Shown here: positions 14,876-23,837 of the stretch, one piece after another
How the letters are laid out: each line of letters opens with the position of its first letter
Position numbering within the stretch: the stretch's first letter is position 1
Origin: Discostella pseudostelligera
Lineage: Eukaryota; Bacillariophyta; Thalassiosirophyceae; Thalassiosirales; Thalassiosiraceae
Reading direction: 5' to 3'
DNA: 49,811 nt
Assembly: GCA_036940085.1 (NCBI GenBank)
Contig: JALLBK010000230.1
Location: forward strand, 1 to 49,811
Position numbers and translations under genes: made by a program
Notes under the pieces: generated by a model
What the model saw: only the letters and a program-made list of their open reading frames with translations
Told to the model about the DNA's origin: nothing
Database searches by the model: none

Positions 14876-17800
14876 TCAATACATCATGTTGGATCCAAGT
14901 GATATAATTAATGCCACAACTGTCGTGACAATCCACAGCTCTCTTCCGCAAGAAATGCCAGATCTCGAACTGTTAATACTAGTCCTCATAGTGTTCAGAT
15001 ATGAAACATCGCTGACCGATCCATACCAGCTCGAGCTATTCTTCTTGGCCGATTTGCCCAGTAGATCCTTGCCACTCTTTCCGAACACCTTGGCGGACTT
15101 CGAGACTTTATGGGGCTTGGATGACTTGGACTTCGAGGACTGTATCATGATGAATGGGCAGGATGATTAATTGGCAGTCAGTAATACAACAACAAGTATC
15201 ATCAAGTAGGATACGTACCTTGCTAAAGATAGCTACCAATCGGAAATATGACAAGAGAGGCATGACATCAGAGGGCCTCAGAAAAAAGAGTAAATACGAG
15301 GAAGGGGAAAGGTACAAAAATTCTTGAACTTACGTTCCCACTCCTTGATGGTTGGTGATTGCGTTGGCCACTCCGGCCACTCCGGAATGGGCTCACCTTC
15401 TTGTGGACTGTGGGTTCTGTATTTCAGAACATGTTGTATCGTAGTTATACGGGTAGCCCAAGAGGAATGCGATACAGCAATATTGAATCAGTTGTTGGAA
15501 GAATGCAACGCAACTACCTACATCATACGTGCTCCTATTCGATGTCTACTTACGGATATTGAGTTGGAATGAGAGTCTGTTGATACATGATCGGGGAACG
15601 CAGCAAACATAATCAAATTGTTGAGAAAGAGGCTAAACGACTGGGTCGTCCAGAGGGCCACACTGGGAGAATCGACAACATGTTCGAGCACTTACGGGAT
15701 AACAGGTAGGTTCATGTGTGCTGCGACAGCAGAGAAGTGAAACATGATGGGCGACGTATATCATTGAAGAGAATCAAAGGAGTATCGGTGCATCAAATAT
15801 CAAGGGAACTTACGGCTTAGGCTTCTTCGTTGGCTTCTTGGTCCTTGGCTTCTTGGTTGGCTTTTTCGTCTGCATACGCCAATGATTCAATTGAAGATGA
15901 GCGACTGCCGCAATATCAAAGCCGATCGAACGCTATGTCAAGAAATAATACTCACCGGAGGCTTGGTTGGCCAGGGACCCCACCACCCGGGGTGCTGTGA
16001 TGCGAATGACGGATGACAAATTATTTTGAGAACGCGTGGACGAATAACAAATCGAAAAGGTACGAGGATTTGTAGGAACAATTCACTCACTTTGGTTGGA
16101 GACTTGGTAGGACTCAACCACCCATCAGGCTGTGTCCGATAGATGCAAGAAGGATAAGAAGAGAAGGAGGTTCATTAAAGAGGATGAGTCGCCATCACCT
16201 CTATCTCACTCGAATACTAAATGAGAAGTACTCACAGTCTATCTCCAACGTGTGTCGAATTGAAGCGGACAATAATACAAGTATATTGAGAAACGAATTC
16301 AAGTTGCAAGAGAGAATGATTAAGAACTCTTTGTGAAGATACTCACCGGGCGCAGAGAGCCGGACGGGGCGGTCGTCCACGGCTTTCCAGGTAGCGCATC
16401 CCAGTCAACTGTTGATGGTTTACCAGACTATCAAAGGATCGATGGAATTGCAACAAAACAAATGTGTCAGGTAACGTGTTCATAGAGTGCATGAGAGAAC
16501 AAGACAAACAACAATATACACCACAGTAAGAGGGCCGGCACTCACTGGGCTTACAAGTTTGCCAACAGGAGCAGGCGAGAGAGTTTCAGCGTCGTCGGTG
16601 GCTATGGTTGGGGTCCCAGTCTGACAAGAAGAAGCGGCAACACGAGATGGCTCGTAAGCCGATTCGATGAGTTGCTGGTTCCATTCATTGAGTGACACAG
16701 CAAGCATGGTTTGGAAACAACAATCTACTCACAGTGGCATCAGAAGTTGTAGTCATTGGTACCGGCTTCAAGAGGATGAAACAGAAACAAGGAAAAAGAG
16801 GACGATAAGATGTTCAGCAGGATTGCGGTTCTGGCATACGAAAGGAACGGCGTAAACTCACCGCATCAGTGGGCTCGGAAGTGACTGCAGGTGTAGGTTC
16901 CGTCTGCAAAGAAAAACGAATCGAACAAAATAACGATGAGAGGTTGAGGATATAATCTGTCCTTGAGTTGCTGGTTCCATTCATTGAGTGACACAGCAAG
17001 CATGGTTTGGAAACAACAATCTACTCACAGTGGCATCAGAAGTTGTAGTCATTGGTACCGGCTTCAAGAGGATGAAACAGAAACAAGGAAAAAGAGGACG
17101 ATAAGATGTTCAGCAGGATTGCGGTTCTGGCATACGAAAGGAACGGCGTAAACTCACCGCATCAGTGGGCTCGGAAGTGACTGCAGGTGTAGGTTCCGGC
17201 TGCAAAGAAAAACGAATCGAACAAAATAACGATGAGAGGTTGAGGATATAATCTGTCCTACGTCGTTGCAGATAAAGCAGAAGTCTTGGTTACAAGATTT
17301 ACTCCTACTCACAGTGACCACTGCTTCTACACCAGCAGTTGGATCGAGACTTGGCTTGGGAGTTGGTTCGTCCTGGGGTACAGTTCACAGAAAATCATGG
17401 TATCGATGAGAGATATGGAGGCAACAAATACGAAAGTCTTGGGCACTATCCCCCAACAAACACCTTTCTACTCACAGTGATTATGTCGGTTGGTGCGGGA
17501 GATGGTTCCGCCTGGACGTAATCAAAATATCACAAGCATTGTATGAGATTGTAGATTATGCATCACACTGTAGCACATCGATATTGACGAAACAATACAG
17601 TAGCAACGAAAGTTACTCACCGTTATCGGCGCCACTGTAGGCGGTTTGCTCGGCTGAANACGAAACAATACAGTAGCAACGAAAGTTACTCACCGTTATC
17701 GGCGCCACTGTAGGCGGTTTGCTCGGCTGAACACTATTGCATCCATCATAAATGGTGCACCCGACATCAAATAATGATGCTCGTGCACTGCAGCATTCAT

Positions 17801-18113
17801 TGAAGCTGGAGTAGAATGTCTCCGCTGAATAACCAGTGTCTCTGGCGCATGCATTCAGATTGGAATCGAAATACCACTGCTGACCCTCACACGATGATGG
17901 CTGGGGGGTTGATACCTGGGCGACCGGAGGCAGGGTCGGAGATTGCTGACATGGAAATGGAAACGAGTTGAGAAATGAAAACGGTCACATCGGTTGTGAG
18001 CACAAGAAGAAACTTGTAGGGGGGGGGCGCGATCAGCAGAATCACATTCTTACCGTGTCTTGACCGAGGACGGATGCTGGCACGAGAGCGAGGAGGAGCA
18101 CAAGCTCCATCAT
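14876..18113 (-). CDS. Silaffin-like secreted protein with Cys-rich domain and pentalysine cluster
   Basis: Nineteen exons, all with GT-AG borders and matching phases, give about 419 residues: 18113-18054, 17945-17694, 17511-17476, 17372-17313, 17199-17158, 17061-17029, 16903-16862, 16765-16733, 16620-16546, 16427-16347, 16238-16236, 16129-16091, 15994-15956, 15869-15814, 15720-15696, 15576-15554, 15416-15334, 15232-15219 and 15139-14876. Exon 1 is a signal peptide (LVLLLALVPASVLG). Exon 2 has a six-Cys domain (CEGQQWYFD...NECCSARAS...GCTIYDGCN). Exons 3-18 encode Pro/Thr/Glu, Trp (HPGWWGPW) and TKKP segments. The last exon carries the pentalysine cluster KSSKPHKVSKSAK, then GKSGK, GKSAKK and a C-terminal hydrophobic segment (IVTTVVALIISLG). 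Pentalysine clusters direct silaffins to biosilica in Thalassiosira. The C-terminal helix suggests a silicalemma or membrane anchor. The assignment is by motif, not by alignment. The 3-nt exon is the least certain. Confidence 0.75.
16668..17259. repeat. 296-bp tandem duplication of an exon pair
   Basis: Bases 16668-16963 and 16964-17259 are two copies of a 296-bp unit that differ at one position in the part I compared (T at 16903, G at 17199). Each copy holds two complete phase-0 exons of the silaffin-like gene plus their introns, so the duplication adds 25 residues in frame. The single difference changes the first codon of one exon (Pro CCG versus Thr ACG). The high identity, introns included, indicates a recent event. 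Confidence 0.95.
17587..17731. repeat. 72-bp direct duplication around an ambiguous base (likely assembly artefact)
   Basis: Bases 17587-17658 are repeated exactly as 17660-17731, with a single N at 17659 between them. The copy contains the 3' end of exon 2 of the silaffin-like gene and the start of its intron. Collapsing the two copies leaves the gene model unchanged, since the extra copy falls in the intron. An N flanked by identical ends is what two overlapping but unmerged contigs produce. Confidence 0.85.
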
Positions 18114-18954
18114 TGAAAATGAATGATGCATCATTTACGAAAGTGAAAGTTGCGTCGTCGTTGATATGATTCTGATGTACAAATTCCAATCGATTCAATA
18201 TTATGCGGAACAACCGAGTGGTGTATTGATACTATCGTCGATGAATATTATTCTGCCGATGATGCGATGGAATGTCGGAATAGATGACTGCTTGGTGATG
18301 ATTGTTACGTCCACAAAATTACTTGTCACTATTGCTTCAGTCTTCAGTCTTCAGTCATTCTATCCTGCCTGCCCCGTGCATTAATTGCGTAGGTAGTAAC
18401 GGTGACGCCATCGGAAGATGAGGACGGCGGAAAAGACCTTGTGTACAAGACGTCGCGGGGATCAAATAGAGGGTTGCAGTTGCAGCACCATCGCGCGTTC
18501 ATCGTTCATCGCTGTTCATCATCTCTTGCATCTTGCAGCAGTAAATATTGCTGCTTGTGTGTGTCTTCCTCTAGAGCTCCCTCTCTAGAGAGAGAGATAT
18601 CATAGTATTTCGCTCTGCACCGCACTCTGCATGTTTAGCGCGCGGATAAAACTCCTCCGATTTCTCACTTTTAAATTCAGACTTCTCGTTCTTGTACTGA
18701 TTCCTTTTCTTCTGTATTCCTGTGGGCTGATGTAATGTGCGATTTTTAAAGTTTTGTACTAGATCCTACGTTAAAGTCAAGTATCAAGCAGCCACAAGTC
18801 CATTCGTGAATTGCCCATGTGACACACACACGTTCAGCAAGAAGAAACCCATCTTTGTGGTGGTACGGCGGACAGTCGTCGTCCAGGGGATCTCCGCGTG
18901 GAAGAGGTTGGATCTGGTTGTGAGGCGAGGAGACCATAAACATAACCAAGGACC
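18114..18954. other. Divergent promoter space, silaffin-like gene / thioredoxin-like gene
   Basis: About 840 bp between two divergent starts. It holds no supported ORF. A short GA-rich hairpin (CTCTCTAGAGAGAG, near 18581-18594) is visible. No E2F-like element was seen here, unlike most divergent spacers in the window. Confidence 0.5.
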
Positions 18955-21125: not shown

Positions 21126-23837
21126 ATGATGCCGTCGGTACGATCATCGATTGCGTTGGTAATCGTCGTCGTTGGGGGATTCGCACTATGTGCAACAGCT
21201 GACTACAGCCATGAGGTGAGTGACGACGAAACGATGGATGACGGTTGACGCCCACCGGCTGGTAGCGATGGCGATGGCACGGTCATCTGACTTTTTCACT
21301 ATGGTTTCGAATTGCCGGCTCATTTTCGTGCACATACATATACTGTGTCAATGTTGTTCACGACAGGTCGAGCAAGATGCCCGTATTATTGAAGAGGCTG
21401 ACACGTCGTCTCGAAAGTTAAAAGAGTTCGGGACAGTGGACACCGACCAACCAGAGGTGAGTGGAGACTGTTGCGTATAGTAATAGAAAATATTTGCAAT
21501 GCGGTGCTGCATTTCATTACATCCCGCGCCTCATCCTGATTCACCCCCTTTCGATCAGCAGGCGGTGCACACGTCAAATTTGTTTTTGAATGATGAAACC
21601 CCATCGCTCTTTCGATCATCGGACATAGATGAAGATACAGAAACGGATGTGCCTACCTATATGCCCTCTTTGATCCTGCGGGCCAACGATGGACCGTCTA
21701 CAACGTCGCAACTAACATCTGACAAACAAATATCCAACACCACAACATTGCAACCGACAGGCCCAACTTCCCAGCCAACTTCCCAACCGACTGGACCGAC
21801 AGCTCAACCCACTTCTGGTAAACCAACTTCCATCCCAACATTTCAACCGACTGGGCCAACTTCCCAACCAACCTCCCAACCGACTGGACCGACAGCTCAA
21901 CCAACTGGCAAACCAACTTCTCAACCCTCTAAACCAAAAACTAGTAAACCAACGCCTCCTCCAGGTGAACCCTCCTTTTCACCGTAAGTTTTCACCCAAT
22001 ATTCTTCGTATTACATTGATTTTATCCTTGCTGACTGACTTTCTCTCTTGCTTTAGCACCTTGAGCCCGTCGTTGTCTCCGTCAGTGGTGAGAAACCAAC
22101 AAGTAATATTCCTCGTTTACAATCATTTTGAGCGCACTCATACTTTTGTATACAAAATCGTCTTCCATTCTTTGTCTTGCAATCAAAGTCACCCACTCTT
22201 TCACCGTCCCTTTCACCAACCCTTTCACCGTAAGTTGATTCTTTCATATAATTCATGTCTTGTCGGATTCATCCGTTCCTAACTGTCAACTTTAGTATAA
22301 TTGGTTCACCAACAACGCAAAAGCCAACTCGAATGCCCGGTAGTCCCTCGGTATCACCGACCCTTAGTCCTTCGCTATCACCAACTCTGAGCCCGTCGGC
22401 GTCGCCCACCATAAGCCCGTCGGAGTCGCCCACCATAAGCCCGTCAATTTCGCCGACCCGGAGTCCAGGTATTATCAAGGACCCAACCGCCAGCCCAACA
22501 TTAACACCATCACTCAGTCCAACACTTAGTCCATCAATTTCACCGACTCTGAGCCCTGTTAGGGATCCAACTGTCAGGCCAATTAGGAATCCAACTGTCA
22601 GGCCAATTAGGATTCCAACTCTCAGCCCTACACTTACTCCAACTCTCAGTCCAACACTTAGTCCATCAATTTCACCGACTCTGAGTCCATTTAGGGATCC
22701 AACTGCGAGACCAATCTTATCACCATCACTTCGTCCTGTCCAGCCAACGCCGCCTCCGTTTCTGAGACCATCACCACCGCCGACATTTAAGCCATTTAAT
22801 AATACTCCAGCACCCGTTCGACCCAACTTGGTAAGTTGAACTGACACTTTATCCTATGAATTCTCATTCAGAAGTGTTGTCATCTGACATTGTATCATTT
22901 CTTTCTTGGGTGTGCAGTTTCCCACAACATTGAGGTGAGTCAGGCTTTCGATCTTTCATATTACATCCATTTCACGCTCTCTTGATTACTAACTGTTGTT
23001 ATTTCACAAAGTCCTTCAACGTATGCACCAATTTCAGGAGCAACTCAATTTCCTTCCTCCTCGAGCTCGCCTTCACTCAATCCCTCATCACCCTCTCCAA
23101 CTCGTTTCATTGAGTTACTCCCTAGTGCTAGTGTTCCTCCATCTCAGCCGACGAATTATATTAAAATCCCTGTCGTTCCTCTGCCACCTACATTTGGGCC
23201 GAGTGCAGGACGAGAAAAGCAATCACTAGACGTGAACGTGAACGTAAACGTAGACGTAGACGTAGTAGTGGTACTTCCATTTTTTTCGGGGAAATCTTCC
23301 AAATCAAAATCAAAAACATACAGTGAGTTGATGCACACATTATGGCAACATCGTTGTTGATCTTCATCTGTGACACGGCCAAGTAACTCACAATGAATTT
23401 GTTTTCCATCGTCACCTGACGTAATCCCATCATACCCGGATGTACAAGTAGTCTACGTCGACGGAAAGAGCTCTAAGGCATCTTATGGCAAGTCAGGGAA
23501 AGGAAGCAATGCATATTATGTTTTGGCGAAGGAGGAGGAAATGCAATACAGAGAACCTGAGCTGGGAGATATGAATACTGAATTGAAAAATATTATCGAT
23601 ACTAACGGCAAGGCAGGGAAAGGCAGCAAGGCATATTACGTAAGTGCGAAGGATGAGCAAATTGGATACAGAGAACCTGAGCTGGGAGATATGAATACTG
23701 GGTCGGAGAATATGAATACTGGGTCGGAAAATATGAATACTAGATCGGAGAATATGAATACTGGGTCGGAAAATATGAATACTGGGTTGGAAAATATTAC
23801 GAGCACTGGGTATTCGTCTACGGCTGGTACCTGTTAG
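21126..23837 (+). CDS. Secreted PT/SP-repeat protein with lysine motifs (silica-associated type)
   Basis: Nine exons with consistent phases give about 641 residues: 21126-21215, 21367-21456, 21562-21983, 22057-22087, 22189-22229, 22296-22830, 22918-22934, 23012-23322 and 23449-23837. Exon 1 is a signal peptide (IALVIVVVGGFALCATA). Exon 2 contains SSRKLKE, an RXL tripeptide of the kind cleaved in silaffin propeptides. Exon 3 has PTGPTSQPTSQPTGPTAQPT units; exons 4-6 have SPTLSPSLSP units. Exon 8 ends with SGKSSKSKSK. Exon 9 has GKSSKASYGKSGKGS, a second GKAGKGSKAYY copy and five MNTGSEN heptads. The GKSGK motif and the split-Pro CC|GTAAGT splice sites are shared with the minus-strand gene at 14876. 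The likely role is extracellular or frustule matrix. No perfect pentalysine cluster is present. The CAGCAG acceptor of exon 3 allows a one-residue alternative. Confidence 0.7.
23487..23726 (+). repeat. 120-bp internal tandem duplication in the last exon
   Basis: The segment starting GGCAAGTCAGGGAAAGG at 23487 recurs with an exact 120-bp offset at 23607 (GGCAAGGCAGGGAAAGG). Both encode GK(S/A)GKGS(N/K)AYYV, then K(E/D)E and YREPELGDMNT. Each unit is 40 codons, so the frame is preserved. Confidence 0.85.
23691..23795 (+). repeat. Five 21-bp units encoding MNTGSEN
   Basis: Five tandem 21-bp units encode the heptad MNTGSEN with few substitutions (R for G in unit 3, L for S in unit 5). They form the acidic/amidic C-terminus of the secreted protein. 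Confidence 0.9.

Follow-up and report, generated by a model that had tools for sequence, protein, structure and literature searches.

The window analysed here, the whole 49,811-nucleotide stretch of DNA from the freshwater centric diatom Discostella pseudostelligera (Thalassiosirales; contig JALLBK010000230.1, forward strand), carries on its minus strand, between positions 18110 and 14876, a chain of short exons which an earlier note on the letters had described as an unreported silaffin-type gene. Reading along this strand we see a 19-exon frame of 418 amino acids, all joins in phase just as that note had claimed; it is nearly certain that we are dealing with a single protein-coding gene, spliced mostly via strong GTRAGT donors.

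The exon chain between 18110 and 14876

All 18 introns have GT-AG borders, the donor being GTGAGT in 12 cases, GTAAGT in four, and GTAAGA and GTACGT in one each; their sizes run from 79 to 137 nt with a median of 107, once a 73-bp assembly duplicate is subtracted from intron 2. From first to last, the exons measure 57, 252, 36, 60, 42, 33, 42, 33, 75, 81, 3, 39, 39, 56, 25, 23, 83, 14 and 264 nt. Every length from exon 2 to exon 13 is a multiple of three, with borders in phase 0; those of exons 14–18 are not, the frame nevertheless being kept across every join. ‘Tiny’, as the exons were described, does not fit exons 2 and 19 but fits the chain as a whole: all but one of its 17 internal exons measure at most 83 nt, 12 of the 17 are a multiple of three, and exons no longer than 83 nt make up 59% of the coding sequence. 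Multi-exon genes in a published D. pseudostelligera annotation have a median of 2–3 exons and a maximum of 28 (PMC12159174), and RNA of strain AJA232-27 has been collected for expression profiling (PMC10700740). In the following list P0001 is the public protein model of this contig, and P0002, P0010 and P0011 are related proteins described below.

18054..18110, minus: exon 1, signal-peptide-like MELVLLLALVPASVLGQDT; hydropathy, 18/19 residues in P0002
17694..17945, minus: exon 2, six-Cys domain (C..C..CC..C..C); in P0001, absent from the P0002 model
17587..17732, no strand: 73-bp duplicate flanking an N at 17659, assembly joint; self-comparison
17476..17511, minus: exon 3, AEPSPAPTDIIT; 12/12 in P0002
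17313..17372, minus: exon 4, Pro/Thr (PT) segment; 18/20 in P0002
16668..17259, no strand: tandem duplication of 296 bp with 1 difference, giving exons 5-6 and 7-8; self-comparison
17158..17199, minus: exon 5, PEPTPAVTSEPTDA; 13/14 in P0002
17029..17061, minus: exon 6, PVPMTTTSDAT; in P0001, not in the P0002 model
16862..16903, minus: exon 7, duplicate of exon 5; in P0001
16733..16765, minus: exon 8, duplicate of exon 6; in P0001
16546..16620, minus: exon 9; in P0001, 20/25 in P0002
16347..16427, minus: exon 10, contains Trp, last complete exon of the NCBI model; 22/27 in P0002
16236..16238, minus: exon 11, candidate 3-nt exon ACT; AG-ACT-GTGAGT context
16091..16129, minus: exon 12, PDGWLSPTKSPTK; 13/13 in P0002
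15956..15994, minus: exon 13, HPGWWGPWPTKPP; similar DNA in P0002, other frame
15814..15869, minus: exon 14, TKKP repeats; similar DNA in P0002, other frame
15696..15720, minus: exon 15, (P)THEPTCYP; single-genome evidence
15554..15576, minus: exon 16, TLIPTQYP; single-genome evidence
15334..15416, minus: exon 17, Trp/Pro segment; 25/27 residues in P0011
15219..15232, minus: exon 18, 14 nt, (P)IFSK; AIFSKVR in P0011 equals exon plus donor read in frame
14876..15139, minus: exon 19, lysine block, spacer, hydrophobic tail, stop TGA; P0010 at 75% over 72 aa
15089..15127, minus: perfect K-x2-K-x2-K-x2-K-x2-K, KSSKPHKVSKSAK, within exon 19
14879..14938, minus: C-terminal hydrophobic tail LWIVTTVVALIISLGSNMMY, membrane span or glycosylphosphatidylinositol (GPI)-attachment signal; Kyte-Doolittle

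The product has each of the segments that had been listed for it: a signal-peptide-like start (hydrophobic core LVLLLALV, with small residues ahead of QDT), a six-Cys domain, PT, Trp and TKKP segments and a hydrophobic C-terminus. In the whole protein there are 8 Cys, and N and Q together make up 18 of the 418 residues.

Because a free choice of splice sites opens frames in almost any DNA, we tested the chain with strict GTRAGT donors. This hexamer occurs 17 times on the transcribed strand of the gene region and never on the opposite strand, while 500 dinucleotide shuffles yield 1.7 on average and never more than 8; the model uses all but one of the 17 as donors, the remaining one lying inside the 73-bp duplicate beside the N. 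Starting at an ATG, up to 12 GTRAGT introns can be strung together in frame in the gene, against at most 3 in 200 shuffles. Across 94 windows of 3.2 kb, both strands included, the longest such chain is 12, 10 and 10 in the three with most of the gene in them, 3 in two others that overlap it, and no more than 2 in the remainder; in 40 strands from 20 other 10-kb stretches of the genome it does not exceed 3, the densest 3.2 kb there containing six GTRAGT. The exon chain is far beyond chance, although this last comparison samples 200 kb of the 23.0-Mb, 963-contig NCBI assembly and similar genes may exist elsewhere. An introner origin of the introns was considered and rejected: intron pairs with z-scores of 14–19 are all tied to the 296-bp duplication, and the next best scores 3.0.

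Two repeats bear on the exon count. The 73-bp copies either side of the single N resemble two overlapping contig ends, and the extra copy of the exon (Q)PSKPPTVAPIT found beside it (17656-17621), an exon that P0001 holds once, is taken as an assembly artefact and dropped from the model. The earlier note had reached its total of 19 with this copy; its place is now filled by the candidate ACT exon, on which it depends whether the total is 18 or 19. As for the 296-bp repeat, it may be recent or strain-specific, the alternative being an assembly error; exons 6–8 are missing from the P0002 protein model.

Relatives and the public annotation

A database search with the spliced protein, in which the 7,996 candidates sharing the most words were scored, returned as its best match P0001, hypothetical protein ACHAXH_008418 [Discostella pseudostelligera], which is the annotation of this very contig and is identical to our model from MELV through exon 10 and the following T. 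The NCBI model, 247 aa long, starts at an in-frame ATG at 18134 rather than at 18110, covers exons 1–10 and stops two residues after exon 10. The gene is consequently not ‘unreported’, as had been supposed, the claim holding instead for its second half, which is missing from the annotation.

Working downstream from exon 1, P0002 (ACHAWU_000590, a separate D. pseudostelligera record) supports exons 1, 3–5, 9, 10 and 12 in frame and has no match to exons 2 and 6. Its model overruns the donor of exon 12 and then reads the DNA of exons 13–14 in other frames; by our own reading of the letters, the differences in this part fall mostly at third positions of the TKKP frame. Exon 2 is otherwise backed by P0001 and by more distant paralogues. 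When residues 312–418 served as the query against proteins of ~230–731 aa, none of 52 candidates reached E <= 10; with a shorter query, P0010 and P0011 emerged from 12 candidates. P0011 (118 aa, from a 2,375-bp contig) carries exon 17 at 25 of 27 residues and, further on, AIFSKVR, which corresponds to exon 18 plus its donor; we accept it despite an E-value of 0.68, since exons 17 and 18 and the introns next to them can be recognised in its letters. P0010 (98 aa, from a 907-bp contig) corresponds to the last exon, with a frame that comes in across the acceptor, at 75% identity over 72 residues. Within the D. pseudostelligera genome neither the last exon nor exon 17 has a second copy at E <= 1, and a search of viral contigs for relatives of the last exon gave 34 pattern stretches of which none was confirmed. 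Judged from these letters, the gene model is supported by P0002, P0010 and P0011 besides the partial public model; none of the relatives found spans both halves.

That absence, together with the end of the NCBI model two residues past exon 10 and the straying of the P0002 model after exon 12, would suit two transcription units, with the annotated 247-aa gene (exons 1–10) followed by a separate or decayed 3′ part. We hold this to be very improbable: in P0002 exon 12 follows on from exon 10, relatives conserve the DNA of exons 13–14 and the protein of exons 17–19, and the GTRAGT donors run on unbroken. The NCBI end, which reads RP-T-A-stop, is itself odd. Between exon 10 and the contig end the sole ACNGCN-stop has its first base at 16133, four short of the true acceptor, and to end there P0001 would seem to need a GT..AC intron (the test covered unsplit codons and one route through a 4-nt exon), which makes it unlikely that a gene finder chose this end.

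The oddity may be the trace of a transcript containing an ACT that could not be placed. Between exons 10 and 12 lies AG-ACT-GTGAGT, flanked by introns of 108 and 106 nt; without it there is one intron of 217 nt, longer than all others, and the frame is kept whether the three bases are included or skipped. The P0002 model passes straight from exon 10 into exon 12, with no residue from ACT, and since AG-NNN-GTRAGT occurs twice in the window, the pattern alone is no evidence for such an exon. We list ACT (16238-16236) as a candidate exon.

Lysine block, hydrophobic tail and six-Cys domain

The perfect K-x-x-K cluster announced for the last exon is found exactly at 15127-15089. Around it, five overlapping windows of 12–14 residues are pentalysine clusters by the definition quoted in PMC5501833, and at least four such windows are present in P0010. 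A KSSK-S-KSSK string, which hinges on the join between exons 18 and 19, is a KXXK repeat in the sense of the same paper. When the last exon is shuffled 200,000 times, 0.1% of the results hold a perfect K(xxK)4 and 4.4% some pentalysine cluster, the latter figure making the mere presence of a cluster weak evidence. Conservation of the block is the stronger argument: all 34 of its residues are identical in P0010, against 35 of the 54 alignment columns after it (Fisher p = 3e-5).

Beyond the block, the hydrophobic tail retains its character in P0010 but not its letters (Kyte-Doolittle 1.86 over 19 residues vs 1.50 in P0010), and no more than a few residues separate the hydrophobic stretch from the end of the protein. 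The tail had been read as a membrane-spanning helix; it is indeed present, but it could also belong to a GPI-attachment signal. Small residues, a short spacer and a terminal hydrophobic stretch are typical of GPI signals, and both the gene and P0010 have small residues (SSRSG/SSRSN), a short spacer, hydrophobicity to the C-terminus and no basic residue after it. The last residues are, on the other hand, not strongly hydrophobic; the membrane proteins of the silica vesicle described in PMC5647440 and PMC5525289 are transmembrane; and a literature search linking GPI anchors to the silica deposition vesicle found nothing. With the tail ending the protein, a span is only slightly the likelier of the two, and we keep the GPI signal as a possible variant, though not the favoured one; by the same token the tail sets the gene apart from silicanin-1 and the silicalemma-associated proteins (SAPs) (PMC5525289, PMC5647440).

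At the other end of the protein, exon 2 matches at least six other places in the same genome at E <= 0.1, at least four on contig C662 and at least two on contig C856. The two C662 frames (L014, 1903-4041 on the plus strand; L005, 1-2631 on the minus strand) stand head-to-head and are similar, long and open; each of their proteins carries a hydrophobic anchor at its N-terminus, KSEK and Trp-containing stretches, RRL, PT repeats and a pentalysine cluster (KTKSAKVKQNSSAK), with 2 and 4 Cys domains. By eye they resemble the cingulins and silaffin-like proteins of PMC9650480 and PMC4557024, and the pair are good silaffin/cingulin-like candidates in their own right. C856 (L013) holds two six-Cys frames, one of which contains an N, with PT repeats and Trp/Lys-containing N-terminal parts.

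Six database proteins show 28–38% identity to exon 2 in the Cys domain, and domain and PT repeats occur together in six of seven unnamed relatives (P0003–P0007 and P0009); by a rough pattern these and the C662 and C856 proteins have 1–5 copies of the domain. KxxK is found seven times in P0004 and three times in P0007. A Cys domain goes with a lysine cluster in more than one protein, though not as a rule: the C662 pair combines them, C856 has no pentalysine cluster and P0003–P0009 no strict one. Homology of the paralogues’ lysine cluster to that of the gene was rejected as not clearly better than composition.

Pfam gave no match for exons 2 and 19 and, at E <= 0.01, nothing for P0010, P0004 or the C662 plus-strand protein; for P0009 and P0007 the matches were all below the curated cut-off. 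A PDB sequence search with exon 2 found no match at E <= 1, and an AlphaFold model of this exon, made from 7 sequences, was judged too poor for a fold search (mean predicted local distance difference test score, pLDDT, 60.8).

Two further observations were made alongside. A C-terminal motif like FGSTPTVSxETTGPPT is shared by P0003–P0007 and the C662 plus-strand protein (in P0003: SGSTPTVSTEVTGPPT) and is lacking in the gene. On the opposite strand of the window, ~3 kb away (21216-23640, plus), there is a second PT/SPT-repeat gene, which also looks intron-interrupted, with broken frames and 8 GTRAGT in 3 kb.

Possible function and comparison with known systems

The earlier note had leaned on pentalysine clusters, reportedly the subject of Poulsen et al. 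2013, in calling the gene silaffin-type. The published screen of Brembu et al. asked for an N-terminal endoplasmic reticulum (ER) signal peptide and KXXK repeats (X = S or G) 1–6 residues apart; pentalysine clusters (5 non-consecutive Lys in 12–14 residues), present in 8 of the 10 new KXXK proteins, and the RXL protease site, present in all 10, were not screen criteria (PMC5501833). By such screens, with likeness judged from published criteria and not from the silaffin sequences themselves, the predicted product, with its pentalysine clusters and PT repeats, would count as a silaffin-like/KXXK protein. The silaffin-type label is in this respect partly supported by the clusters, KXXK, PT repeats and a block conserved in P0010; of RXL there is a single example (GREL, beside the tail), which is not conserved.

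We lean, if only slightly, towards an anchored, silaffin-like wall protein. As predicted, the product would consist of a signal peptide, the six-Cys domain and a Pro/Thr-rich, presumably glycosylated stalk with Trp and TKKP segments, then the Lys/Ser block with its overlapping pentalysine clusters and the hydrophobic tail. It would enter the ER; Ser and Lys of the block would be modified as in silaffins, and the modified block could bind the silica and polyamine matrix, whether inside the silica vesicle or at the wall. The tail, as membrane span or GPI anchor, would hold the protein to the membrane, with Cys domain and stalk perhaps contacting the organic wall matrix. Since signal peptide, PT stalk and block all precede the tail, the block would face the lumen or the outside, the side on which the blocks of silaffins exert their effect. 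A role in silica is plausible, and the joint occurrence of Cys domain and pentalysine cluster in two other proteins of the genome fits a role in the cell wall.

Several results weigh against this picture. GREL is missing in P0010; the pentalysine cluster is found in only two of the four Cys-domain frames elsewhere in the genome, both similar and both on C662, and none of the seven proteins P0003–P0009 has a strict one; when the C662 lysine cluster is aligned to that of the gene, 6–7% of 5,000 shuffles do as well; and in the relatives examined, exons 15 and 16 have no match and nothing joins the two gene halves. Some of these points, namely the combination of PT repeats and six-Cys domain in six of seven relatives with no strict cluster among them and the loss of RXL in P0010, would also suit a PT-rich glycoprotein secreted to the surface (as adhesive, in a chitin network or as a protective coat) and not specially connected with silica, as would the share of shuffled last exons that hold some cluster; the lysine block would then be an extracellular basic patch near the membrane, binding acidic polysaccharide. 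We regard such a glycoprotein as the more doubtful proposal, the lysine spacing and indeed the whole 34-residue block being invariant in P0010 while the remaining exon drifts, the gene agreeing with the published KXXK screen, and a pentalysine cluster recurring in two Cys-domain paralogues.

Were the gene to encode an anchored, silaffin-like wall protein, silaffin-type lysine targeting in a membrane-held protein would tie the membrane physically and directly to silica. Genes of such build may be truncated in other diatom annotations, micro-exons being hard for gene finders, and biosilica proteomes searched against such annotations would miss their peptides.

How does the gene compare with systems already described? 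Like the silaffins and KXXK proteins of Thalassiosira pseudonana it has a putative signal peptide, KXXK with S/G, pentalysine clusters and the PT repeats seen in some of them (PMC5501833, PMC9650480); unlike T. pseudonana silaffins it has an N-terminal six-Cys domain, a hydrophobic C-terminal tail, micro-exons and no conserved RXL. With Silicanin-1 and SiMat7-like proteins it would share a signal peptide, a Cys-containing lumenal part and a C-terminal membrane segment (PMC5525289, PMC5501833), but it lacks the NQ-rich domain with its 18 conserved Cys and the 20-aa cytosolic tail of Silicanin-1 and has a lysine block instead (PMC5525289). The resemblance to SAP1-3 lies in the putative signal peptide, the long, presumably lumenal part and the single C-terminal hydrophobic segment; here too there is a difference, with no room for the conserved 28-aa cytoplasmic domain, and with lysine block and Cys domain present (PMC5647440). 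The PT-repeat six-Cys proteins (C662, C856, P0003–P0007 and P0009) have the same Cys domain and PT linkers, but with 1–5 copies of the domain by a rough pattern and, in C662 and C856, in long uninterrupted frames, whereas this gene has a single copy, many exons and its lysine block at the end opposite to the Cys domain.

In structural class, though not by homology, the gene is also like the micro-exon genes of Schistosoma, which encode secreted proteins, have short exons mostly a multiple of three, and are hard to annotate; their introns reach almost 5,000 nt as against 79–137 here (PMC10526429). The open-access literature searched yielded no description of a diatom micro-exon gene. As all exons from 2 to 13 are multiples of three with phase-0 borders, any subset of them can be skipped without a frameshift; in-frame micro-exons of this kind would be an easy route to varied wall proteins. 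By analogy, the gene might be a diatom counterpart of the schistosome genes, with a repertoire of wall proteins that grows by exon-intron duplication (the 296-bp unit could be one caught in the act) and extends to a 3-nt exon; its members could vary in stalk length and in possession of the Cys domain, with the membrane-anchored, silica-targeting lysine block as their common end. This we consider unlikely.

Taken part by part, then, the components are already known; the arrangement of Cys domain, PT stalk, conserved pentalysine block and terminal anchor, which was not found in the open-access literature searched, is apparently new, and the best reading of the letters is of a C-terminally anchored, silaffin-like protein encoded by a micro-exon gene.

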